Assembly: GCA_026398575.1 (NCBI GenBank)
Contig: JAPLSP010000408.1
Location: 1-15,937, forward strand
DNA from: Candidatus Sumerlaeota bacterium
GTDB taxonomy: Bacteria; Sumerlaeota; Sumerlaeia; JADFCT01
Length of the DNA: 15,937 nt
Reading direction: 5' to 3'
Made by a program: the position numbers and the translations under genes
The notes under the pieces: generated by a model
What the model saw: only the letters and a program-made list of their open reading frames with translations
Database searches by the model: none
What the model was told of the DNA's origin: nothing
Shown: piece after piece, positions 1,860-15,425 of the stretch
Numbering within the stretch: position 1 is the stretch's first letter
Layout: each line of letters begins with the position of its first letter

Positions 1860-4676
1860 CTATTGGTGATGCTCGGTGAAATGGCCGGTGGGGGATGTAT
1901 CGCCCTTGAAATTAATTATGGAATTGGAGTTTGTATAGGCGTCGCCCTGGATGAGGGGCTTGGGCAAAAGCCCCGGCGCCTTGGGCAAGACGCGGATGGT
2001 CTTGATGATTCCGGCGAAATCCGGCTGGCCATTGGCGTGCGCGCCGGCGATGAATTGGCCCGCGACCCCAAGGTCGCCGCGCAGCAGCTGAATGCTCGCG
2101 AGCGGAGCGTTGGATTCCTGCCCATATCCCGCAGCCAGGATTGCCGCCGTCGTGGGACGGTCAATGGCTCCGAGGCGGCCGCCTGTATAGCTGGTGGCGC
2201 CGTCCGCCTGGGTCCATTTCGCGTATCTGGCCTGAAGCGCCTTCACGCCTCCATTGCACGTCATCGTGCTGAACGCAATATCACCGCCGGTAACGAGCAT
2301 GGTTTGTATGCCGGTGTAACTGCGCATTTCCGCCACGACCCAATCGGCGCGCAGATAATCGGCGTACTTGATCACGTCTTGGGTCCGATAAGCGCGCAAC
2401 TGCGTTCCCCAGCGTAGTCCGCTCAGGCTAACGTTTTTCAAACTGCCGCACTGAATCTCTCCGCAGTGGATCGCGCTTCCGGCGCCGGAGACGGAGAGCG
2501 TTCCCAAAACACTGATGATGCAGTCGCTGGTCGCTTCGCAAAAGGTGATAAAAGGGGGAATGCCCGTGGGCACGATGCGTTTCGATATCAGGCGCAGGCT
2601 GGTGTTGGCGCTCGAAAACAGCCCGCGCAACCGCACGCCGCTGAGATGGACCGTCATCGAGCGCTTGATCGGCGCGGTAACGGAGGTGATGGTCTCGACA
2701 ATTTGCGTGTCGGCGCAATTGCCCAGGCTTTGGCCCGTCTGCTCGTACCATCCACCGGGATGCGATCCCAGTTTTTGCGAAAGAACCGGCCAGGTGGAAT
2801 TCATCCGCGCCGCCATGCTGATCGAGCGAATGGTCCGGGCGGTGATGGATTGGACCGTGCAGCTGCTGGCGGTCACGGCGCCAAGATTGCCTGCGGCGGT
2901 CAGTTCGGCGATGGGCGCTTGTGTATAAAACTTCGCAAAGCCTCCGGCGGTTTGGATGCGCGGGATCGTTTCTCCCCACGTCACGCCTTTGCGGCGCTTG
3001 ATATTGAGTGTATCGCTGTCGTTTCCGCCGGTGATGGCAATGCCGTCGGTTGTCACGTCAACGCGCCCGCCGTGTTTTGTGACATAAGTGATCGCGTAAT
3101 CCTTGGTCCATAGATACCAGGTTCTACCCACGATCGAAGTTCTCGCAGTAGGGTCCAGGCCGAAAGCGGTTGAATCGCTCATGCGCCAGGCTTCAATGGC
3201 GTATTTCCTCACAAAATCATAGCTCAGCCATGCGTATCCCGACTCGCCCCAACCGGCGCCCCAGGAATTGACGATGCGGAAGGCATGTTTAATGTCGCTG
3301 CACCCTGTCACACAAACGGCGTGGAAGCCGAGGAATCGCTCATCCGCGATCGTCTCGACGGTATAGACGTCCTGCTTATAATTGACAAAGCTTAGAAATA
3401 CCGGAATACCGAGCATGACGCAATCGCCCGGCGGCTGATTGCCGTTGGCGTCCAACGGCGGCGCCAGCCTTTTAATGAGCGGCGCCACGTTGTTGTTCCA
3501 CAGGCTCGCGAAACGCTGCGTGTCGAAGTTGACATGCGGCGTATGGGCGAAAAAGGGCGCATATCCCAGCTCCTTGAATTGCGCCGCCTCTTGGAAATGG
3601 ACGTCGCTGGTGACTGTGTCGGCAGAGGGGAAATCCTTGAGCGTCGGCGCGCCATAGCCCCGAAGCAGCTCGCCGGCGAAATGGAAATGGTTGCCGCCGC
3701 CATTGGCCCAGAGGAAATAGGGGCTGATGATGCCGGCTGGGTCGGTAGTCACCAGCGCATTGCGCTGCAGATTTTCCTGATAGGTTTTGGCGTAGTATCC
3801 CATCGCCCAGCAAACGCCGGCGCCGTAGCCGTGCGGGAATTGCGCAGTGCTGTAAGGGGCGAATCCGCCCGAGGTCGTCTGATCATAAACGGGCGGCACG
3901 AGCGCGCCCAGGTCCGCGATCACCGGCGCCACGGCCAATTCATCCCGCTGCGATCCGGCAATCGGGGCCGTGGTGGATGGATCGTGCGTGACATAGACGC
4001 GATGGCGGCGAATTGGGCCGATATTTTTGCCGAACCAGAAATCCAGCGTTTCGCTCCCATACCATGCCGACTGCTCCTGCCAGTTCCGCTCGAGCGTAAT
4101 GTGCAGGGTTACATATTCTCCCGCCGGCACGGTGATGGTTTCGATTTTGGCGGCGACAAGGCGAACGGTTTCCGAGCCGGAACTGTCGGCGGTGAAGTAA
4201 ATGCCGCCGTTGCCGATGCCCTGGTTCACGCCGTCCGTATTCAGCACGATCGGCAAAAGCTCCAATGGATCATTGTAGGTGCGTTTGACTTTGCTCGAAT
4301 CTTCGTATTGCGCCAGAATCAAATATTGATCGGTCCATTCCATCTGCCAATCGCTCCAGCGATTGGCGGATTGGATATCCTTCATCGAATAGACGGCATC
4401 AAAAGCGCCGACGCTCAATGGCCCGGAAATTTGATAATGGATTTCCTTCTTGGCGCTCGTGTCATTGATCTGGCGCAGATAAGTCAGCGACACCTTGTCA
4501 ACGATAGGCCAATAGTCCTTCATGGAGTATGTATCGGCGGCGCCGTGCCGCGAAATCGCGGCAAACACCAGGGATACGCCTATGCATAGGATTATCTGCG
4601 AAGCGCGCGTCGGATGAAAGCGGTTACTATGAAAGGTTCTACCTGGCGCTGCTGCGGTCTTACGAAAGAAACTCAT
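1860..4676 (-). CDS. Secreted C1 (papain-like) cysteine peptidase with N-terminal beta domain and repetitive C-terminal region
   Basis: This 938-residue protein is probably exported: a hydrophobic stretch at about 27-41 is followed by small residues and AADT. Residues about 55-235 form a beta-rich domain containing ITVPAGEYVTLHI and TLDFWFGKNIGPI, resembling DUF3108-like domains. The C1 peptidase domain spans about 255-490. VPPVYDQ supplies the oxyanion-hole Gln (Q266), GVCWAMG the nucleophile C289, FLGFHAVCV the base H452, and RIVNSWGAGWGESGY the N470 of the classic NSWG block. The Gln-to-Cys distance is about 23 residues instead of the 6 in papain, so a loop is inserted there. Residues about 530-938 are Gly/Ala/Ser/Thr-rich with repeated short hydrophobic strands, suggesting a beta-helix or adhesin-like stalk. 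An AGGAG 8 bases before ATG 4676 supports the start. It lies alone, divergent from osmC. The substrate is unknown. Confidence 0.85.
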   Translation of the reverse strand: MSFFRKTAAAPGRTFHSNRFHPTRASQIILCIGVSLVFAAISRHGAADTYSMKDYWPIVDKVSLTYLRQINDTSAKKEIHYQISGPLSVGAFDAVYSMKDIQSANRWSDWQMEWTDQYLILAQYEDSSKVKRTYNDPLELLPIVLNTDGVNQGIGNGGIYFTADSSGSETVRLVAAKIETITVPAGEYVTLHITLERNWQEQSAWYGSETLDFWFGKNIGPIRRHRVYVTHDPSTTAPIAGSQRDELAVAPVIADLGALVPPVYDQTTSGGFAPYSTAQFPHGYGAGVCWAMGYYAKTYQENLQRNALVTTDPAGIISPYFLWANGGGNHFHFAGELLRGYGAPTLKDFPSADTVTSDVHFQEAAQFKELGYAPFFAHTPHVNFDTQRFASLWNNNVAPLIKRLAPPLDANGNQPPGDCVMLGIPVFLSFVNYKQDVYTVETIADERFLGFHAVCVTGCSDIKHAFRIVNSWGAGWGESGYAWLSYDFVRKYAIEAWRMSDSTAFGLDPTARTSIVGRTWYLWTKDYAITYVTKHGGRVDVTTDGIAITGGNDSDTLNIKRRKGVTWGETIPRIQTAGGFAKFYTQAPIAELTAAGNLGAVTASSCTVQSITARTIRSISMAARMNSTWPVLSQKLGSHPGGWYEQTGQSLGNCADTQIVETITSVTAPIKRSMTVHLSGVRLRGLFSSANTSLRLISKRIVPTGIPPFITFCEATSDCIISVLGTLSVSGAGSAIHCGEIQCGSLKNVSLSGLRWGTQLRAYRTQDVIKYADYLRADWVVAEMRSYTGIQTMLVTGGDIAFSTMTCNGGVKALQARYAKWTQADGATSYTGGRLGAIDRPTTAAILAAGYGQESNAPLASIQLLRGDLGVAGQFIAGAHANGQPDFAGIIKTIRVLPKAPGLLPKPLIQGDAYTNSNSIINFKGDTSPTGHFTEHHQ

Positions 4677-4899
4677 TCAAATGTCTCCTCTTGAAGCGCT
4701 TCGATTTTTTGCGTTACCCAAAGGCGCCGTCATCGTATCCCGGGTAAGCGCTGGCGGAAAGCGGAAAAATCAGCGTGGACGGGCGCGGCGCCGGACCTTC
4801 TGACCCGGCTGTCCCTTATTTCGTTAGAACCCGCTTGCGCGCGCCAGGTTATACACGCTATTTTCATGCCAATAAGTACCCCATCGAAGGATCGCGCGC

Positions 4900-5319
4900 A
4901 TGAGCGTTGAAATTGATATTCGATACGAAGGCGATCTCCATTGCAGCGCCCAGCACGGGCCGTCGGGGAAGACGCTGATCACGGATGCCCCGGTGGACAA
5001 CGGTGGCAAAGGCGACGCGTTCTCACCCACGGACCTTGTCGCGACGTCGCTGGGCGTATGCGTCTTGACGATCATGGGGATCGTGGCGAAGCGGAATGAT
5101 TGGGACATCCGGGGAACGCGCTGTCATGTTGTCAAAGATATGGCCGCCGCGCCCACGCGCAGAATCGGCTCGCTGACGGCGATAATCACGCTGCCCAAGG
5201 GGCTGGTCCTCGGCGCCGCGGATCGCGCTAAACTGGAGAACGCCGTCAATATCTGCCCGGTCAAGCAGAGCCTGCACCCGGATGTGGCCGTGAAGATCGA
5301 GTACGTGTATCCCGAATAG
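4900..5319 (+). CDS. OsmC family peroxiredoxin-like protein
   Basis: This 139-residue cytoplasmic protein is full length for the OsmC/Ohr/YhfA superfamily, thiol peroxidases that reduce organic hydroperoxides and related species. FSPTDLVATSLGVCVLT carries the first conserved cysteine (C54) at the start of the central helix. NICPVKQSLHPDV carries the second (C119). The pair is the expected peroxidatic/resolving pair. The pattern is closer to the general OsmC/YhfA branch than to Ohr, but this was judged by eye. GAAGGA sits 8 bases before ATG 4900, supporting the start. The 223-base region upstream is shared with the divergent peptidase gene; no strong promoter was recognised in it. The nitroreductase follows on the same strand after 168 bases, so co-transcription is possible but not shown. 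Confidence 0.92.
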   Translation: MSVEIDIRYEGDLHCSAQHGPSGKTLITDAPVDNGGKGDAFSPTDLVATSLGVCVLTIMGIVAKRNDWDIRGTRCHVVKDMAAAPTRRIGSLTAIITLPKGLVLGAADRAKLENAVNICPVKQSLHPDVAVKIEYVYPE

Positions 5320-5339
5320 CGCAGCACGATAAATGCATC

Positions 5340-5411
5340 GTCCTTGGAGTCCCTGACATCTTTGCAGTCCTTGGCGTTCTTGCGGTCCTTGTTGTCTTTG
5401 ATGTCTTTCGT
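5340..5411. repeat. Tandem 9-bp repeat tract, 8 degenerate units
   Basis: Eight consecutive 9-base units fit the consensus GTCYTTGNN with no length slips (5340-5348, 5349-5357 and so on to 5403-5411). The complement reads as NNCAAGGAC units, the same family as the tract at 13702-13746, which lies in the opposite orientation. It starts 20 bases after the osmC stop in intergenic DNA. No spacer/repeat structure of a CRISPR is present. Confidence 0.8.
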
Positions 5412-5487
5412 CCGCCAAGCTAAAAAACAAAATCCCTAATAATCATCAACAGCGTCATCATCCATCACAAAACCGGGAGGCAAAACG

Positions 5488-6009
5488 ATGGAACTCTTGA
5501 AAGCAATCCAGGACCGGCACAGCGTCCGAAAGTTCAAGAATCAACCGGTGGCGCGCGAAATTCTTCAGCGCGTGCTTGAAGCGGCGCGTCTGGCGCCGTC
5601 GGCCAGCAACCGGCAGGAATGGCGTTTCGTCGTCGTTGAGGATGCGTCCAGGCGCGCGGCCTTGAGCATGGCGGCCAATCAGCAGCGCTTTGTCGGCGAA
5701 GCGGCCGTGGTCATCGCCGCCTGCGCCGAGACCGACGAGCACGTCATGTCCTGCGGCGAGAAGTGCTATCCGATAGACGTGGCCATCGCGCTCGAACACA
5801 TCGCGCTGCAAGCCACAGATGAAGGTCTCGGAACCTGTTGGGTCGGCGCCTTCAACGCCGCCAAGGTCAAAGAAATCCTGGGCATTCCCGCACACGTCAA
5901 GGTTGTTCAGCTGATGGCCTTGGGCTATCCCGCCGATCCCATCATCCCTGAAAAACGCCGCAAGGAGATGAAGGAGATTGTTTGCTTTGAGAAGTGGAGT
6001 TTGAAGTGA
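5488..6009 (+). CDS. Nitroreductase family FMN-dependent oxidoreductase
   Basis: This 173-residue protein has the features of the nitroreductase (NfnB/YdjA-like) flavin fold. RHSVRKF (R10, S12, R14) binds the FMN phosphate, APSASNRQEW is the second FMN contact, DEGLGTCWVGAF the glycine-rich loop, and LMALGYP the strand near the C-terminus. Such enzymes are usually dimers that use NAD(P)H to reduce nitro compounds, quinones or enones. Short single-domain members like this one are common and their true substrates are mostly unknown. GGGAGG 7 bases upstream of ATG 5488 makes the start secure. It stands between osmC and a lipoprotein gene on the same strand, with gaps of 168 and 108 bases, so a shared redox-stress role with osmC is possible but only inferred. 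Confidence 0.92.
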   Translation: MELLKAIQDRHSVRKFKNQPVAREILQRVLEAARLAPSASNRQEWRFVVVEDASRRAALSMAANQQRFVGEAAVVIAACAETDEHVMSCGEKCYPIDVAIALEHIALQATDEGLGTCWVGAFNAAKVKEILGIPAHVKVVQLMALGYPADPIIPEKRRKEMKEIVCFEKWSLK

Positions 6010-6117: not shown

Positions 6118-6648
6118 ATGAACAGGGGAAACCACGCAATAGCAGTGAGTCTCATCCTGGCAGGAGCGGTGATCGCGGGGGGATGCGTGGGCGGAAAATC
6201 CGCCACGGCGCCGTCTGAAAACATCGAAATCATAATTGATAATTCCGCCGTCATGGGATTTGACAAAACAGGTGAATGGACAAGCGTCGGCGAGTCGGAC
6301 GATCGCCATTTCGGCCCCGATTTGCTGTGGGCGTATGCCAAATCAGCCGAGCATGGCGCCGCCACCGCCACGTGGACGCCCGACTTGCCCAAGGCCGGCC
6401 AATACGAAGTCTCCATCTGGTACGGCAATGATCCGAACCAGGATCACGACACAAAGGCGCCGTTCGTCGTCAGAGCCGCGGGCAAGGAGTATCCTTTCAC
6501 GGTCAATCTGCGCGAGAATTGCGGCCAGTGGAACAAACTCGGCGTCTTCAAGATGGCCAAGGGAACCGGGAACTCGGTCAAGACTTATACCACCGAAAAC
6601 GGAAACGCCATCGCCGACGCCGTCAAGTTCGTGTACGTTGGGAAGTAG
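6118..6648 (+). CDS. Golvesin-like domain lipoprotein
   Basis: The 176-residue protein begins with a lipoprotein signal peptide: positive residues, then AVSLILAGAVIAGGC with the lipidated cysteine at C23. The mature part is almost entirely one domain, about residues 33-175. It has the pattern of the golvesin C-terminal-like beta-sandwich: IIIDNS, GEWT, ATATWTPDLPKAGQYEVSIW, GQWNKLGVF, and the closing AIADAVKFVYV. That domain normally occurs as a C-terminal module of large secreted enzymes and is thought to bind carbohydrate or protein. Here it stands alone, anchored to the membrane. The start at 6118 is chosen because AAGGAGG lies 7 bases upstream; a longer reading from 6076 would bury the signal peptide. 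The ligand is unknown. Confidence 0.85.
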   Translation: MNRGNHAIAVSLILAGAVIAGGCVGGKSATAPSENIEIIIDNSAVMGFDKTGEWTSVGESDDRHFGPDLLWAYAKSAEHGAATATWTPDLPKAGQYEVSIWYGNDPNQDHDTKAPFVVRAAGKEYPFTVNLRENCGQWNKLGVFKMAKGTGNSVKTYTTENGNAIADAVKFVYVGK

Positions 6649-6742: not shown

Positions 6743-6803
6743 TCCGTGTTGTCCGGGAAATCCGTGGTAAATTTTTAACCACGGATTTCCCCGATAACAC
6801 GGA
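6743..6803. repeat. Imperfect palindrome with 26-bp arms between convergent genes
   Basis: The arms 6743-6768 and 6778-6803 are inverted copies matching at 24 of 26 positions around a 9-base A/T loop. The arms are built from CCGTG, GGGAAATCCGTGG-type words that look like a dispersed intergenic repeat. It lies between the golvesin lipoprotein (plus) and the ATPase (minus) stop codons and could terminate transcripts from both sides. It has no similarity to the palindrome at 1704-1840. Confidence 0.85.
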
Positions 6804-6826: not shown

Positions 6827-8545
6827 TCATTCGGCATGGGATAATGGCCTAATATGGTCCCTGACGGGCTGGGATATTGCCACATGTTTGCCAAGGCTTA
6901 ATAGCCATTGCAGAAACTCATCAAAGCGAGGTTGATTGCGCATTTCGCGGGGTATCTGCAATTTTCTTAATGCACCCAAAATATCAGGCTCGTTCAGGCT
7001 TGGGAATAATTTGAATGCCTCAGAATAATGAGTCTCTGGAGACACTTGAAAAAATAGATAAACGTATTTTATAAGCATTTCCAATGGCAATTTGTTATCA
7101 ATAGTCCCTAGATAATTTATGACGTCTTTTTTATTGCCTAATCGCGCATGGGCTTGAGCAATAATATATCCCATCGAACGATCTCGGGCTTCATCTTCGG
7201 ATGCGGATGCCACTATGTCTTGCCAATACTCAAGCGACGAGAGAGCCCGAATATAGACAAGGCGATAATCTTGAGAGTGCATCTTTTGATCATTAGTTGC
7301 GATAGCTTGGACAATTTCCTGCCACGCCTCGGGATCAATTGAGAGGTTTGAATACCTTGTCAAAAGTTTCGCGCTCATTTTCCCAACCCCAAAGGCGCGA
7401 AGGCAGACTGCTATTTTGCCAGCGGGCTTCAGCTCAGATTCGGGAACTTTTTCGCACTCCTGAGCAAATTCGCCGAGCGCTTCTTGATCCGCAGGATTGG
7501 ATTCCAGATAGCGCAGATAGTTTTTGATCCCTTGCGCTTCGCCTCCTCGCGCCTGGCGGAGATATCGCGCAGCTTCAAGGAAGACAGACGGGTGGGGAAA
7601 TAAAATGATGAGTTCCTCTAGCTGACGGCGGTTCTCTTCAATCGAGCGGCGGGTAATTCCTTTTCGAAAACTGTCAAGTCTCTTTTCGACATAAGGAATC
7701 GCGGCCTCAGGTTGAAGGCTGGCGAAAAGCTCGACATAGTCGTCGAGGATTGCCGGATGCTCCTCACCAAAACGATCCAAGGCCAGATATTCATCGAGAC
7801 ACATATCTTGCTGGTCAAAGAGATAGTATAAGCGTGTCACATCAAGGCCCACTCGTGATCGCATCCGTTCATCGAAAGCCGCCATATCTTTGGGACGTGG
7901 GATCCGCGAAACAACAACGCGAATGTCCACCGATGTACGGCCATGCGCGCGGCTTTTGACGATCTTGCTGTCACGGATGCGCTCGTAAACGCGCCGAGTA
8001 CCCTTGACGCTTTCCGGACTAGAGCAAGTGAATAGCACGACGGAATCCGGAAATACCTGCGCGCAGAGTCCTCCCAATTCAGTCAGCCCGGTTCGAGAGT
8101 CTATCACCAAAATATCCGGATGAAATTCGCTTGCTATTCTCTTGATGAGATCGAGGCAGAATGCAAATCCTTTGGGTTCACTCAAGAATGTGTCCCACTG
8201 CAAGCTCGCTAAATCTTTGTAGTACTCCGGCGTCCAATAGCGTCCCGCCGGCATCAGCCAAAGCTTCCCGCCCGCTTGGGTCACGCCTTCAGCTAACGGA
8301 ACCTCCAATGAGGAAATCGGAGGTAGGGGGTGCCTCATTGAGAAAGCAAAAAACTGGTCCATCATTCCCATCTGGCATTTGGACGCATCCACATCGGGGA
8401 ACTTCGAGTCCAATCCAGGCGCTTCGAAGTCCATGTCGGCCATGAAGACTTTCTGCCCCATCTTTGCCAGATAAAGGCCGTAATTGGCGCAGGCAAGAGT
8501 GCGGCCAACACCGCCTTTGTAGGAATAAAAAGTAGTTATCTTCAT
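6827..8545 (-). CDS. KGGVGR-variant P-loop ATPase (ParA/MinD superfamily) with helical C-terminal region
   Basis: The protein starts MKITTFYSYKGGVGRTLACA. This is a ParA/MinD-type deviant Walker A in which the usual final GKT is GRT (K10 kept, R15 in place of Lys). MADMDFEAPG (about 36-44) is the switch/Walker A' region, and DILVIDSRTGLTELGG (D149) is Walker B. Residues about 290-572 are helical with repeated Ala/Leu patterns resembling TPR-like repeats, a likely protein-binding scaffold. At 572 residues it is about twice the length of a simple ParA. The start at 8545 is preferred over 8551 and 8578 because its ATG overlaps the upstream gene's TGA as ATGA, and GGAAAGG sits 8 bases before it. 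It is the last gene of a three-gene operon. KGGVGR-variant ATPases are known from predicted conflict (defence) systems; partitioning is the alternative. Its 3' part is notably A+T-rich. Confidence 0.85.
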   Translation of the reverse strand: MKITTFYSYKGGVGRTLACANYGLYLAKMGQKVFMADMDFEAPGLDSKFPDVDASKCQMGMMDQFFAFSMRHPLPPISSLEVPLAEGVTQAGGKLWLMPAGRYWTPEYYKDLASLQWDTFLSEPKGFAFCLDLIKRIASEFHPDILVIDSRTGLTELGGLCAQVFPDSVVLFTCSSPESVKGTRRVYERIRDSKIVKSRAHGRTSVDIRVVVSRIPRPKDMAAFDERMRSRVGLDVTRLYYLFDQQDMCLDEYLALDRFGEEHPAILDDYVELFASLQPEAAIPYVEKRLDSFRKGITRRSIEENRRQLEELIILFPHPSVFLEAARYLRQARGGEAQGIKNYLRYLESNPADQEALGEFAQECEKVPESELKPAGKIAVCLRAFGVGKMSAKLLTRYSNLSIDPEAWQEIVQAIATNDQKMHSQDYRLVYIRALSSLEYWQDIVASASEDEARDRSMGYIIAQAHARLGNKKDVINYLGTIDNKLPLEMLIKYVYLFFQVSPETHYSEAFKLFPSLNEPDILGALRKLQIPREMRNQPRFDEFLQWLLSLGKHVAISQPVRDHIRPLSHAE

Positions 8546-9006
8546 GACCATAGCCTTTCCGATTGAGTCGCGCAACATAGCCCTTCGGCTTCCTCTTCGA
8601 TCTCGGGGCCAAACTTGTATTGCACGATGCCGAAATCTTCTTCGATTGTGCTTGTGCCTACTTCACACTCAGTCTCAAGCTGCTTTGCGCCATGCTCCAG
8701 CGCAATGGCGCCTAACTGCCCAGCAGAGATGCTGCGATTTTCGCTCTTCTTTATCCTTTGAGCAAGATGCTCTAACCGCGTCCAAGTTTCCTGCTTCATG
8801 GGAACCTTGCGGTAAATATCCCAGGAGGAATCGGTTGGGCGCCCGCCTTTACTAGACAGCCGCCTCCCAATCCTTGTGGCAAGCACGCGCAAGCCAATAG
8901 GATCGAGATGAACGTTGCCGATATACTCAATCTCTTCCCCCCCAAGCAACGCAATGCCTTCTTCGGGTGTGAGTACTCTAGGTTTCTCTTTTTCTTCTTT
9001 ATTCAT
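8542..9006 (-). CDS. Probable ribbon-helix-helix-like regulator or adaptor, middle gene of the ATPase operon
   Basis: This 154-residue protein belongs to no family I can name. Residues about 64-112 look like a ribbon-helix-helix unit: a short strand (IYRKVPM), helix KQETWTRLEHLAQRIKK, a turn with SISAGQ, and helix LGAIALEHGAKQLE. The N-terminal 50 residues contain LTPEEGIALLGGEEIEYIG, the middle has a basic SSKGGRPTD segment, and the C-terminal 40 are acidic. If RHH is right, it would bind DNA as a dimer, and the direct repeat at the operon promoter is a candidate site. The start at 9006 is chosen over 9039 because GGAG lies 8 bases upstream. The gene overlaps the preceding one by 8 bases and the following ATPase by 4 (ATGA), so all three are probably translationally coupled. 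ParA-type ATPases often pair with small DNA-binding partners. Confidence 0.72.
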   Translation of the reverse strand: MNKEEKEKPRVLTPEEGIALLGGEEIEYIGNVHLDPIGLRVLATRIGRRLSSKGGRPTDSSWDIYRKVPMKQETWTRLEHLAQRIKKSENRSISAGQLGAIALEHGAKQLETECEVGTSTIEEDFGIVQYKFGPEIEEEAEGLCCATQSERLWS

Positions 9007-9412
9007 AGTCAAATCTCCGAATTCTGAAGAACCGGCCATCCATCAACATGCCGATTTCCCCCTGCTTTGCTTCCCGGCCCATTCGACACACGAAGCGTTT
9101 TAGTATAAGCACGTTCCGTTCGTTCCATTCCTCAGCCGTAATAAAAGAAAACACCATGGTTACTTCTTCCTTTTTTACTTTGTTCCCTCGTTCTACATCC
9201 AGCCAGCCTCCCATGCCTTCCACAGCTGTCGCGCCGCCAAATAATTCCGACATTACCTGAATCGTCGCATCCACCCAAACCTTATGCGGCAAAGGTTTCT
9301 CATCTCGCGTCTTGCTCGGAACATAGACGCAAACATGGTGGTCCTTTTGCTCATCTATAGCGCCCAGCAGAAAGGCATCGCTTACTTTAAAGGATTTCTC
9401 AGAATTCTCCAT
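8999..9412 (-). CDS. Uncharacterised protein with FGGAT/GxGGW motif, first gene of the ATPase operon
   Basis: This 137-residue protein has no signal peptide or membrane segment. It looks like a compact alpha/beta domain: VCVYVPSKTRDEKPL, then VWVDATIQVMSELFGGATAV and EGMGGWLD, then EEVTMVFSFITAEEWNE, and a final GEIGMLMDGRFFRIRRF. The FGGAT...GxW...E-V order resembles small uncharacterised proteins that I recall beside KGGVGR-type ATPases. That is memory of a pattern, not a search result. The start is well supported: GGAGG lies 7 bases before ATG 9412 and a sigma70-like promoter about 42 bases upstream. Its TAA lies inside the start region of the next gene (8-base overlap). A role as sensor, small-molecule enzyme or adaptor cannot be decided from the sequence. 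Confidence 0.8.
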   Translation of the reverse strand: MENSEKSFKVSDAFLLGAIDEQKDHHVCVYVPSKTRDEKPLPHKVWVDATIQVMSELFGGATAVEGMGGWLDVERGNKVKKEEVTMVFSFITAEEWNERNVLILKRFVCRMGREAKQGEIGMLMDGRFFRIRRFDYE

Positions 9413-9447
9413 GTTTTGCCTCCGAGCGATTCATGCGCGACACTTTT

Positions 9448-9464
9448 AGATCAAATATAGATCA
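9448..9464. promoter_or_regulatory. Direct repeat AGATCA overlapping the -10 box; candidate operator
   Basis: AGATCA occurs at 9448-9453 and again at 9459-9464, an 11-bp period that places both copies on one face of the helix. The -10 box lies between them. A repressor bound here would block RNA polymerase. The RHH-like protein encoded in the operon is the obvious candidate, by analogy with RHH proteins that autoregulate through direct repeats. Two copies of a 6-mer are weak statistical evidence on their own. Confidence 0.4.
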
Positions 9465-9482
9465 CGCGTCCAAATATGTCAA
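9454..9482 (-). promoter_or_regulatory. Sigma70-type promoter of the three-gene ATPase operon
   Basis: Read on the minus strand, TTGACA (9482-9477, six of six consensus bases) is followed after exactly 17 bases by TATATT (9459-9454, five of six). It lies 41 bases before ATG 9412, giving a leader of roughly 35 bases that contains the GGAGG ribosome binding site. It is the strongest promoter-like sequence I found in the window. Confidence 0.7.
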
Positions 9483-9535
9483 GGCGCTTTTTGCCCCAAA
9501 ACTATTTTTTGAAATTCTGCTTATTTTATCAGCGA

Positions 9536-10945
<1,410 letters not shown>

Positions 10946-12943: not shown

Positions 12944-13753
12944 GTGAAAAGCTCGGAATCGTGTTTCCCCTGCGCGAAAACTCCCCTTCGGTGGCGATGG
13001 CGAATCCTGATCGGCGCGCTGTGCCTGGGTGTGCTGGTCTGCGCATTCGCTGTGGATGGCGCCGTCATCGCCAGGATAGACGCTTGGCGCCACGCGGCAA
13101 ATAACGCCAATGCGCGGCGCATCACCGTATTCTTGAATGCGATTGAATTATACGCGATGGGCTATATCACCGCCGCCATCGCGATTGCGATGCTGTTTCT
13201 GGACCGGCGGCGCGCGGCGCGGGCCTTGGCGCTCGCTCTCATAGTGACGGCGGTTGGCCTGGCGAATAACGTCGTCAAGCAGGCTTGCGGACGCGCCCGC
13301 CCAAAGACTCTCAAGGATTTGAGCAAGCGCTCAATGGGTTCGCCGATTGGAAATGACGCCGACGCCCTCTCTTCCCGAACGATCTATTTCGGCGGACCGG
13401 CCAAGGGATGTGGAATGCGGCAGTCAAAGTACCAGTCTTTTCCGTCCGGGCATAGCGCGGCGGCGGCGGGTCAGTCCGCCGTGCTGTGCGCGCTTTATCC
13501 GCAGGGCACGGCTGTTTTCCTGCTTCTTACCGGGCTCGTGGGCGTGGAGCGCATTTACCATGAGGATCATTTTCCCTCCGACGTCTGGGCGGGATTTTTG
13601 CTTGGATGGCTGCTGGCAAGGGCGATGCTGGTTTGGCGGGCGTTTCAGCGATTTTGTTTTTGGCTGGCGGGGCTGCCGCCCTTTCGGTGGATTTCGCGGA
13701 CCAAGGACCTCAAGGACCTCAAGGACAGCAAAGGCCTCAATGGAAGCAAATAG
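12944..13753 (+). CDS. PAP2 family phosphatase (membrane lipid phosphatase)
   Basis: This 269-residue membrane protein has all three PAP2 motifs: KQACGRARP (K112, R119, P120; KxxxxxxRP), PSGHSAA (167-170, catalytic H170) and ERIYHEDHFPSD (R203, H209, D213). Hydrophobic helices lie near 21-43, 68-86, 93-110, 173-200 and 214-232. Members remove phosphate from phosphatidate, phosphatidylglycerol phosphate or undecaprenyl diphosphate. The neighbouring ArnT-like enzyme, which releases a polyprenyl phosphate, makes a polyprenyl or lipid A substrate attractive, but this is inference. The likely start is GTG 12944 with a loose GGAAG about 11 bases upstream; no in-frame ATG occurs before residue 72. 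Motifs 1 and 2 are separated by an extra hydrophilic loop (about 121-165). The last 18 residues, a Lys/Asp/Leu-rich tail, are encoded by a 9-bp tandem repeat. Confidence 0.9.
   Translation: MKSSESCFPCAKTPLRWRWRILIGALCLGVLVCAFAVDGAVIARIDAWRHAANNANARRITVFLNAIELYAMGYITAAIAIAMLFLDRRRAARALALALIVTAVGLANNVVKQACGRARPKTLKDLSKRSMGSPIGNDADALSSRTIYFGGPAKGCGMRQSKYQSFPSGHSAAAAGQSAVLCALYPQGTAVFLLLTGLVGVERIYHEDHFPSDVWAGFLLGWLLARAMLVWRAFQRFCFWLAGLPPFRWISRTKDLKDLKDSKGLNGSK
13702..13746. repeat. 9-bp tandem repeat forming the 3' end of the PAP2 gene
   Basis: Five 9-base units of the type CAAGGACCT run without slips, the first three nearly identical and the last two degenerate. Because 9 is a multiple of 3 the frame is kept and the tract encodes KDLKDLKDSKGLNGSK at the C-terminus. 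The unit is the reverse complement family of the tract at 5340-5411. Confidence 0.8.
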
Positions 13754-13800
13754 CGCGAGGTAAAACTTGATCTACTGAATTATATTCTGTTGCCCATCTT

Positions 13801-13845
13801 CCATGAGTCCTATAAGTCTCATAACTCCCATAACTCCCATTCGCC
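13801..13845. repeat. 9-bp tandem repeat, CCATAACTC type
   Basis: Five 9-base units (13801-13809, 13810-13818, 13819-13827, 13828-13836, 13837-13845) fit the consensus CCATAAGTC/CCATAACTC, the last one degenerate. It lies in the 112-base gap between the convergent PAP2 and radical SAM genes. The word differs from the CAAGGAC family but the period is the same. Confidence 0.65.
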
Positions 13846-13865
13846 GTGGATAATCTCAGGCAATC

Positions 13866-15425
13866 CTATTGGTCGCGCCAGGATTTTAGGGCGGCGCTCC
13901 AGCGTCCGTTCGCGGCAAGCGCTTGCTCCAAGAAAGCCAGTGTTTCCGGTCCGCCGTTGGCGAGGAGCGTTTGGGCGGCGGCCTCATCCACGGAGGCGGG
14001 AAGAACGCGCAGGTTCGGGATCTTCATGAGCGCGCGCGTCAGGGATTGCATGCGCTTGCGAAGGATGGCTTCCGGCGGCGGCGGCCCCACGCGCGGCAGG
14101 GGAGTGTGGGGCTCGGGGACATAGATGCCCAGGTTGATGGTGATCGTTCCGATGGCGCCTTTGGGGCGCGAGGCGTTGACGAATCGTTCTCGCAGGCGCC
14201 CGGCGAATTCGGCGATTTCCATCGCTTCCTCGTCGCTCTCCGTTGGCAGGCCGATCATGAAATAAAGCTTGAGATCGCGAATCCCCAGCGCGATGGCCTG
14301 TTCCATGACGCGATAAATTTGCTCATCTTCGATTTGTTTTCCAATGAGGCGCCTGAGCCTGGGCGAGGCGGTTTCGGGCGCAAGCGTGATCGAGCGCTGT
14401 CCGGAACGCGCCAGCGAAGCGAGCATGGCCGGCGTTACGTCTTCGATGCGCAGCGAAGAAAACGAAACGAGCAAATCCTCGCGGTCGCAATAGGCGCAGA
14501 TCGCGTCAATCTCGGGATGCGCTCCGACCGCCGCGGCGATGAGCCCGAAGGAACGCGTCCGCTCGCGCTGGATTTCCATGGCGGAGATGACGGCAGAAGC
14601 GGGATAAAACTCATAGGGCTTGATATTGTGCCCCGCCCAACAGAACATGCAATGATGCGGGCAGCCGCGTGAAATCTCGATCAGGCATTTGCCCGCGAAT
14701 TCCGTCCGGTCGGTGAGGATGATGGAGTGGAGCGGGGTTTTGGGCTCGGGGTTCGGGATTCGGGGCTCGGGGTTCAGGGCGTGGGACTCGGAACTCGGCA
14801 CTCGGCACTCGGCACTTGGGATGATGACATCGGGGATGCGCGCGAGGGTCTGCAGAAGAGCGGGGCGGTCGTCGCGCAGGCGCGCGCAATCTTCAAATAT
14901 GCGCGTGATGGATGCTTGATCGGCGCCCAAAAAGAACGCGTCGCACACGTCCGCCAGCGGACGGGGATTGACTTGGACGCCCAGGCCGCCGGCGATGATC
15001 AAGGGTTGATGTGGCGCGCGATCGCGCGCCAGCAGCGGCAGCCCTGCGCGCTTTATGATTTCAATAACGCTCAGGTAATCCAGAACAAAGGAAATGGAAA
15101 AAGCGAGAACGTCCACGCAATCCAGCGGCAGGCGGCTTTCCAATGTTTCAAGGCGCGGAAGATCGTGAAAATATCGCTCGGCGCGCACGCCGGAGACGGC
15201 ATTGGCCCATGCGTACACTGCCTGATAGCCCAGGCTGCTCATGCCGATGTGATAGGTATTGGGGAAGACCAGCGCCACGTCGAGCGGTTGAGCGCCGGGC
15301 TTGAGAATGGTCCCCGTTTCCGATTCAAGCAGTTCTTTGTATATGTCAACAGGCCGGAGGGACACGCAGAGGTTCTCTTTGGATGGCGTGTTTTTTGCGG
15401 AGCTTCGCGAAGGGATCAGCCCCAA
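13866..15425 (-). CDS. B12-binding-type radical SAM protein (COG1032 / TIGR03960-like) with repeat-encoded linker
   Basis: This 519-residue protein has an N-terminal Rossmann-like cobalamin-binding-type domain (about 48-185: LDVALVFPNTYHIGMSSLGY, VLAFSISFVLDYLS, PLIIAGGLGVQVNPRPLA). A radical SAM barrel follows, with the cluster motif ISRGCPHHCMFC (C255, C259, C262) that binds the 4Fe-4S cluster and SAM. The order matches TIGR03960-like proteins, though it lacks their N-terminal extension and any C-terminal DUF2344. Reaction and substrate are unknown. Residues about 203-230 in the domain linker are Pro/Glu/Ser-rich and are encoded by a 7-bp tandem repeat, probably a recent insertion. The likely start is TTG 15425, with AGGA 4 bases upstream, only 14 bases after the larE stop; a GTG at residue 22 is an alternative. 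It probably forms an operon with larE. Confidence 0.85.
   Translation of the reverse strand: MGLIPSRSSAKNTPSKENLCVSLRPVDIYKELLESETGTILKPGAQPLDVALVFPNTYHIGMSSLGYQAVYAWANAVSGVRAERYFHDLPRLETLESRLPLDCVDVLAFSISFVLDYLSVIEIIKRAGLPLLARDRAPHQPLIIAGGLGVQVNPRPLADVCDAFFLGADQASITRIFEDCARLRDDRPALLQTLARIPDVIIPSAECRVPSSESHALNPEPRIPNPEPKTPLHSIILTDRTEFAGKCLIEISRGCPHHCMFCWAGHNIKPYEFYPASAVISAMEIQRERTRSFGLIAAAVGAHPEIDAICAYCDREDLLVSFSSLRIEDVTPAMLASLARSGQRSITLAPETASPRLRRLIGKQIEDEQIYRVMEQAIALGIRDLKLYFMIGLPTESDEEAMEIAEFAGRLRERFVNASRPKGAIGTITINLGIYVPEPHTPLPRVGPPPPEAILRKRMQSLTRALMKIPNLRVLPASVDEAAAQTLLANGGPETLAFLEQALAANGRWSAALKSWRDQ
14738..14821. repeat. 7-bp tandem repeat inside the radical SAM gene, 12 units, in frame
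   Basis: Twelve consecutive 7-base units of the type CTCGGGG/TTCGGGA/CTCGGCA run from 14738 to 14821 without slips. The total of 84 bases equals 28 codons, so the reading frame of the host gene is preserved even though the unit is not a multiple of three. It encodes a low-complexity stretch such as NPEPRIPNPEP between the two domains of the protein. Confidence 0.85.

Follow-up and report, generated by a model that had tools for sequence, protein, structure and literature searches.

S-adenosylmethionine (SAM) lyases of phages, SAM-AMP lyases of type III CRISPR systems and toxin-antitoxin dyads built around a ParA/Soj-like ATPase are among the described systems closest to the locus analysed here. 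According to the available part of one structural study (PMC7877911), the SAM lyases conserve Gly56, Glu69 and Gln104, Tyr58 packs against the substrate and Ser50 against the adenosine, while Glu68 of the T3 enzyme is the residue that was tested experimentally. The same study describes a delta-ilvA rescue assay for SAMases in vivo. SAM lyases are characterized by a trimeric state and by the cleavage of SAM to MTA and homoserine lactone. The SAM-AMP lyases are PII-superfamily proteins with conserved E71 and Q108, and in the accessible sections of that work Glu and Gln alone are given as structurally common to the SAM lyase and the SAM-AMP lyase (PMC12255297). On the ATPase side, a HEPN family (MAE_18760) was earlier proposed to form a toxin-antitoxin dyad with a ParA/Soj-like ATPase (Anantharaman et al. 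2013, PMC3710099, as far as the available portion goes). In addition, the PADLOC system PDC-M28 combines a small HEPN-like protein, a KGGVGR ATPase and a large P-loop protein. Here, we describe a three-gene operon, P1-P2-P3, in a 15,937-nucleotide stretch of DNA from a Candidatus Sumerlaeota bacterium (contig JAPLSP010000408.1; this whole stretch is called the window). We tentatively suggest that it is a composite conflict module of the defence or toxin-antitoxin type, with a SAM-lyase-like P1, P2 as its control and a KGGVGR ATPase as the switch; the chance that this is correct seems to us a little below even.

Likeness of P1 to SAM lyases

P1 (137 amino acids) is encoded by an open reading frame (ORF) at positions 8999..9412 on the minus strand and belongs to a PII/ferredoxin-like, DUF3574-related superfamily. 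Its fold is closest to those of the solved SAM lyases, being ferredoxin/PII-like over 119 of the 137 residues (Svi3-3, PDB 6zm9/6znb), and the next structural neighbours include CutA/PII proteins. The residues T62-G68-W70-E82-Q117 are spaced by 6/2/12/35 positions, compared with 6/2/11/35 in Svi3-3. P1 resembles the phage enzymes (Svi3-3 and the T3 SAMase, PF23780) in fold and in carrying a Gly, an aromatic residue, an acidic residue and a Gln in the same order and at nearly the same spacing. It differs from them in being a bacterial protein that is encoded in one operon with P2 and an ATPase and that is not detected significantly at the sequence level.

When the P1 superfamily was aligned by hhalign with six T3-type SAM lyases, the score was not significant, but the register paired G68/G55, W70/Y57, D72/E59, E82/E68 and Q117/Q94; G55, E59, E68 and Q94 are invariant in the T3-type family. 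Based on this register and on the spacing, a tryptophan (W70) stands in P1 where the SAM lyases have Tyr58. By reading of the sequence, Gln94 of the T3 enzyme follows the second helix and precedes the next strand. Its Gln103, also invariant and located 35 residues after Glu68, was considered as the counterpart of Q117 and dropped in view of the hhalign register, in which Q117 faces Gln94. The first-pass annotation of this DNA had proposed that the first protein of the operon might be a new effector or sensor, and the SAM-lyase-like fold and residue pattern, as predicted from the sequence, speak in favour of this. P1 is probably trimeric. Searches against PDB chains returned one irrelevant match for the single P1 sequence and none for the P1 profile A2; the matches of profile A7 (TAL effectors and others, E 0.022 or worse) were taken as chance.

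The P1 family matched a set of phage proteins in hhalign with an E of 3e-16. Phage P1-like proteins (L065, L138-L143) retain the G-x-W, E/D and Q pattern, and the two from pelagiphages are gp2 and gp3, located at the left genome end, where T3 has its SAM lyase gene. Three relatives of P1 pass the Pfam cut-off for DUF3574 (PF12098), namely L005 from Bacillota and L065 and L140 from phages, while P1 itself has no Pfam match and the relatives L138, L139, L143 and L066 miss the cut-off. The Bacillota forms also differ from P1 in their signal-peptide-like N-termini and in the lack of P2: by reading of the sequences, the P1-type domain lies behind such an N-terminus in L004 (9668-10324, Brevibacillus) and L005 (9842-10327, Paenibacillus). 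With the SAM-AMP lyases, as presented in the accessible sections of PMC12255297, P1 shares the PII superfamily, an acidic T-loop residue and a B-loop Gln; unlike in type III CRISPR systems, no CRISPR or CorA gene was found among the window proteins scanned.

Association of P1 with P2

P2 (154 amino acids; 8542..9006, minus strand) carries a GGRPTD motif and belongs to a large unnamed family. It gave no match to Pfam (up to E 1) or NCBIfam. The label "ribbon-helix-helix (RHH)-like", which P2 had received in the first-pass annotation, was not confirmed, since hhalign against a protein with a Pfam RHH_1 domain was not significant and the AlphaFold2 model was poor, with a mean predicted local distance difference test score of 57; this model was not used. 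The predicted helices and their register would suit an RHH protein, and we keep this assignment as a mere suggestion. P2 may act as a DNA-binding protein or antitoxin.

Six database relatives of P1 were found besides itself, and six loci, L001-L006, were obtained when genome contigs were scanned with the P1 alignment. P2 as a single-sequence query had no database relative. A P2 homologue directly follows P1 in three of the six loci (L001-L003, Deltaproteobacteria and Oligoflexia by title): the window P2 matched that of L002 with 36% identity across 99 residues (E 1.8e-14, the database searched being made up of these six loci), and the homologue in L001 was reached through the L002 protein. The Bacillota loci L004-L006 contain a P1-like protein without P2, L006 being merely a short fragment.

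Based on a four-sequence P2 profile, the family has at least 2562 members in the protein database at E <= 1e-3 (7993 candidates scored). In genome searches that scored a capped number of candidates per genome, P2 was present in at least 6 of 195 and at least 16 of 329 genomes, with at least one marginal match in each case. Flanking sequence reaching as far as about 9 kb to either side was then fetched at 26 places. Of 26 P2 matches assessed, six were set aside (L040, weak and with P1; L042, contig end; the first copy in L045, degraded; L055, a duplicate of L002; L056 and L057, weak and without P1). In 18 of the 20 strong loci, P1 lies directly upstream of P2, with a gap of -20 to +48 nucleotides by hidden Markov model position; the exceptions are L048, with a P1 remnant, and L053, with no P1. 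Two loci, L043 and L044, are near-identical (831/833 bases), which leaves 19 independent ones. The search from the P1 side, which led largely to the same loci, gave 14 places in 12 of 310 genomes, with a P2 match in the same locus at 13 of them (degraded in L162). Furthermore, in the database protein P0055, a P1-like C-terminus runs straight into P2. P1-P2 is therefore a conserved unit on its own, and the keeping of two small adjoining or overlapping genes as a pair is a feature of type II toxin-antitoxin systems. A P1-like protein without P2 occurs in L160, where, by reading, a different gene directly follows.

No relative was found in the viral contigs searched with P1 and P2 or in plasmids searched by tblastn with P2, while tblastn with P1 gave 14 plasmid records, all from Bacillota and 12 of them named DUF3574. 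In Bacillota genomes, the P1 profile matched 1 of 299, the seed genome itself. By reading of the sequences, neighbours of P1-P2 include BrxA/B/C-like genes, a Doc-like pair, a serine-recombinase-like gene and an IS66-transposase-like gene, and an AbiEi antitoxin was identified by Pfam (E 2.2e-36); these neighbours are located at 3084-7997 in L001, 8863-9764 in L002, 7864-8658 in L041, and 2323-3468 and 4498-6204 in L003. L001 also encodes a 191-amino-acid RiboL-PSP-HEPN-like protein (13496-14071; E 8.9e-6, under the Pfam cut-off), a shorter relative of which lies just after P2 (10783-11145).

The KGGVGR ATPase and the operon

P3 (572 amino acids; 6827..8545, minus strand) is a KGGVGR-motif ATPase of the SIMIBI/ParA-like type whose C-terminal half has no assignment. 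Its identification in the first-pass annotation holds: residues 1-190 match the NCBIfam model NF047398 (KGGVGR-motif variant AAA ATPase) with an E of 3.3e-42 and 145 bits against a cut-off of 90. The tetratricopeptide-repeat (TPR)-like tail claimed there was not recovered, as residues 275-572 gave no TPR match and nothing convincing in Pfam; matches of the tail to Csx21 from PADLOC (E 0.012-0.021) were taken as chance. The PADLOC model PDC-M28B matches residues 4-221 of P3 on 131-345 of its 438 positions (E 1.3e-24), and in PDC-M28, as here, a small gene overlaps or abuts the start of the ATPase gene. However, P1 and P2 match no PADLOC family, including PDC-M28A, and no ORF of the size of PDC-M28C (about 490 amino acids) adjoins P3. 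Membership in PDC-M28 was thus rejected, the ATPase alone matching. The dyad described in the available portion of PMC3710099 is similar in placing a SIMIBI-type ATPase beside a small putative effector; here, P1 and P2 have no HEPN match, and two other proteins fill the small slot.

A plasmid search with P3 matched 25 records, of which 13 were opened. In all 13 stretches, the start of the ATPase gene is abutted or overlapped by a same-strand gene or lies within 12 bases of it. The upstream gene is MqsA-like in three (L063, L064 and L070, by annotation; TIGR03830 was confirmed for L063). PDC-M28A matches the partners of L075 and L076; its match to the L071 partner (2683-3126) is weak, and this protein scores 22.1 bits against the Pfam HEPN cut-off of 22. 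This HEPN-like gene, on a Nostoc plasmid, overlaps the KGGVGR ATPase gene (3123-5795) by 4 bases, and hsdR is close by. The partner in L068 is matched by PDC-M06B, the ATPase of L062 is annotated as TIR-containing, and for the partners in L062 and L073 Pfam showed no convincing match. In L075 (NZ_CP130719.1, 17553-25191), a complete PDC-M28-type set of a small protein, a KGGVGR ATPase and a P-loop protein is flanked by the pglW and pglX genes of a BREX-2 system. Recombinase or integrase genes were present in 5 of the 13 stretches (L063, L068, L071, L073 and L076).

Whole-genome searches with P3 gave matches in 54 of 310 and 41 of 189 genomes, many being matches to the P-loop or tail alone, and the KGG.GR motif was present in 38 of the 60 loci returned. 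Nine upstream ORFs, picked by hand and not at random, were scanned with Pfam: five contain TIR (L082, L083, L084, L088 and L108), one is MqsA-like (L107), one has an RHH_1 domain (L079), and L077 and L119 gave nothing. The L079 partner (1010-1504; RHH_1 E 4.2e-6) has, by reading, a CxxC zinc-ribbon-like N-terminus and overlaps the ATPase gene by 4 bases; the overlap is 1 base in L064 and L070. No relative was found in the viral contigs searched with P3. Taken together, the TIR, HEPN-like and MqsA-like genes, the PDC-M28 parts and the set inside BREX-2 bear out the conflict-type setting first suggested for this ATPase, and such neighbours agree with the HEPN plus ParA/Soj dyad as proposed in the accessible text of PMC3710099.

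In the window, the three minus-strand ORFs overlap by 8 bases (P1/P2) and 4 bases (P2/P3, ATGA), so that their reported coordinates and overlaps stand; alternative starts of P3 at 8551 or 8578 are possible. A promoter-like TTGACA-N17-TATATT lies 5' of P1 on the minus strand (9454..9482), separated by 41 bases from the P1 start. This agrees with the promoter noted earlier, as a consensus match only (11/12). The site is the top-scoring of four promoter-like sites and the only one on the minus strand, while shuffled sequence averages 3.2 sites at a looser threshold of 9/12. Shine-Dalgarno-like sequences precede P1 (GGAGG) and P2 (GGAG). Just 3' of P3, an inverted repeat of 29 nucleotides (6743..6803; 90% complementary, 3-nucleotide loop) could be a terminator or mark the border of the cassette. 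The GC content of P1, P2 and P3 is 0.473-0.512 and that at third codon positions (GC3) 0.510-0.535, below all nine flanking genes measured (0.574-0.613 and 0.682-0.790). Since this composition is unlike that of the surroundings, the three-gene cassette was probably acquired horizontally. Upstream, a same-strand gene similar to asparaginyl-tRNA synthetase (by reading of the sequence) ends at 9536, and on the other side position 6648 is the end of a Golvesin_C gene on the plus strand. Beyond P3, the minus strand has its next long ORF about 2.1 kb on, at 1860-4676; it encodes a 938-amino-acid, secreted-looking protein with an internal papain-like C1 peptidase match (E 3.2e-5).

Proposed function and alternative explanations

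Based on the gene order, overlaps, composition, P1-P2 association, fold match, residue pattern, ATPase family and neighbours elsewhere, all computed directly, we infer an enzyme activity and substrate for P1, a function for P2, a trigger, and a coupling of the ATPase to the pair. P1, a small PII-fold protein whose residue pattern is that of a SAM-lyase pocket, would cleave or at least bind SAM or a SAM-derived nucleotide. P2, encoded on the same mRNA and overlapping P1, would control it as an antitoxin and/or a DNA-binding repressor, and may repress the operon. In this cassette, a KGGVGR SIMIBI ATPase would have adopted the P1-P2 pair and, as a nucleoside triphosphate-dependent switch, would release or position P1 once infection or another stress is sensed. 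A bolder version is that P1 is a cellular SAM-cleaving effector, a phage anti-restriction trick turned into a toxin or abortive-infection weapon that is checked by P2, controlled here by the ATPase and comparable to TIR destroying NAD+, with the whole of DUF3574 being a SAM-lyase superfamily; we regard this as rather unlikely.

A number of results weigh against the proposed module. Against the T3 SAM lyase family, P1 does not reach significance in hhalign (probability 0.5%, E 0.13). It has no Pfam match up to E 1, including S-AdoMet_lyase PF23780, and the other P1-P2 loci encode P1 proteins with Asp instead of Glu at column 82. A fold for P2 can be proposed only tentatively. In an unsystematic look at the neighbourhoods of the P1-P2 pairs up to L046 and from L049 on, no recurring neighbour was seen. 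The KGGVGR-type motif was absent from the 20 P1-P2 loci; the sequence extends at least 600 nucleotides downstream in 19 of them. In the opposite direction, there was no P1 or P2 match at E <= 1 in the 60 P3 loci (38 with KGG.GR, with flanks of about 1.5 kb where the contig allows) or in the 13 plasmid stretches. In addition, L063, a 23-kb Massilia plasmid, has a replication initiator gene (7709-8764) less than 1 kb from its pair of MqsA-like and KGGVGR ATPase genes. The window is thus the sole P1-P2-P3 triad found, and a three-gene order conserved elsewhere, as envisaged in the first-pass annotation, was not observed: P1 and P2 do travel together, while P3 was not found with the pair elsewhere. 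On the metagenome contigs that encode P0004-P0009, the nearest relatives of P1, the same triad may well be present.

Several of these results suit other explanations. P1 could be a non-catalytic PII-like metabolite sensor: on binding SAM or an adenine nucleotide, it would signal through P2 or P3 and leave the ligand uncleaved. The CutA/PII proteins among its next structural neighbours and the Trp in place of Tyr58 are consistent with this, as is the fungal het-B incompatibility system, in which the partner of a HET cell-death protein is PII-like (PMC10890737, in the part of the article available); a sensor role seems to us doubtful, if worth serious attention. Alternatively, P1 might be an off-switch or counter-defence enzyme that degrades a SAM-derived (SAM-AMP-like) signal of another system and is not a toxin. 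The SAM-AMP lyases, from the same superfamily, conserve residues of the same two types, E71 and Q108, in the accessible sections of PMC12255297, and P1 has homologues in phages, of which two, from pelagiphages, are encoded near the left genome end; however, no Cas10, CorA or other signal-making enzyme was identified among the window proteins scanned with Pfam, and we find such a role distinctly improbable.

The connection between the pair and the ATPase can also be questioned. Unrelated modules are often carried together on islands, and P1-P2 could be an ordinary type II toxin-antitoxin-like pair next to which a KGGVGR ATPase landed in the same acquired island. None of the 20 other P1-P2 loci has a KGGVGR-type motif nearby, which points this way. 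So does the state of P1 in some of them, as expected for a costly first gene: it is shortened or broken into two frames in L036, L038 and L047 (within the 18) and a remnant in L048, with P2 open, which an assembly error could possibly explain. Against this, P2 and P3 overlap by 4 bases, the low GC is common to the cassette, the sole minus-strand promoter-like site precedes P1, and upstream small genes overlap relatives of P3 too (L064, L070 and L079). We therefore consider chance neighbourhood unlikely. Least likely of the rivals, and very improbable, is a ParA/RHH-like partition or positioning system, which the first-pass annotation had named as its main alternative. A SIMIBI/ParA-like ATPase beside a small, possibly DNA-binding protein, the weak match of P3 to a PHROG "ParA-like partition protein" (E 2.6e-4) and the replication initiator gene in L063 would fit it. 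It was rejected as the main explanation, since NF047398 outscores the MinD/ParA models by far, no replication or partition gene was seen among the window ORFs identified, no parS-like repeat array is present in the promoter gap (9395-9560), and many relatives of the ATPase adjoin TIR, HEPN-like or MqsA-like genes.

The ATPase family is already known, and ATPase-effector dyads have been proposed before. As far as our searches show, three points are new: the recognition that P1-P2 is conserved as a unit, the interpretation of P1 and of the DUF3574 proteins related to it as SAM-lyase-like, and the proposed coupling of the pair to an ATPase of the KGGVGR type. Among open PubMed Central papers, "KGGVGR" returned nothing except a title on mushroom lectins, "PDC-M28" nothing, and "DUF3574" only a title-level match on plant SET-domain proteins.

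The composite module proposed here offers a testable identity for two unannotated families, P2, with its large membership, and P1, a relative of DUF3574, and extends the list of partners of KGGVGR ATPases. Bacterial immune or toxin modules attack the metabolites NAD+ and ATP. Should P1 degrade SAM, or a signal derived from it, SAM would have to be added to the targets of such modules, and a function could be predicted for the DUF3574-like genes found in phages and Bacillota.

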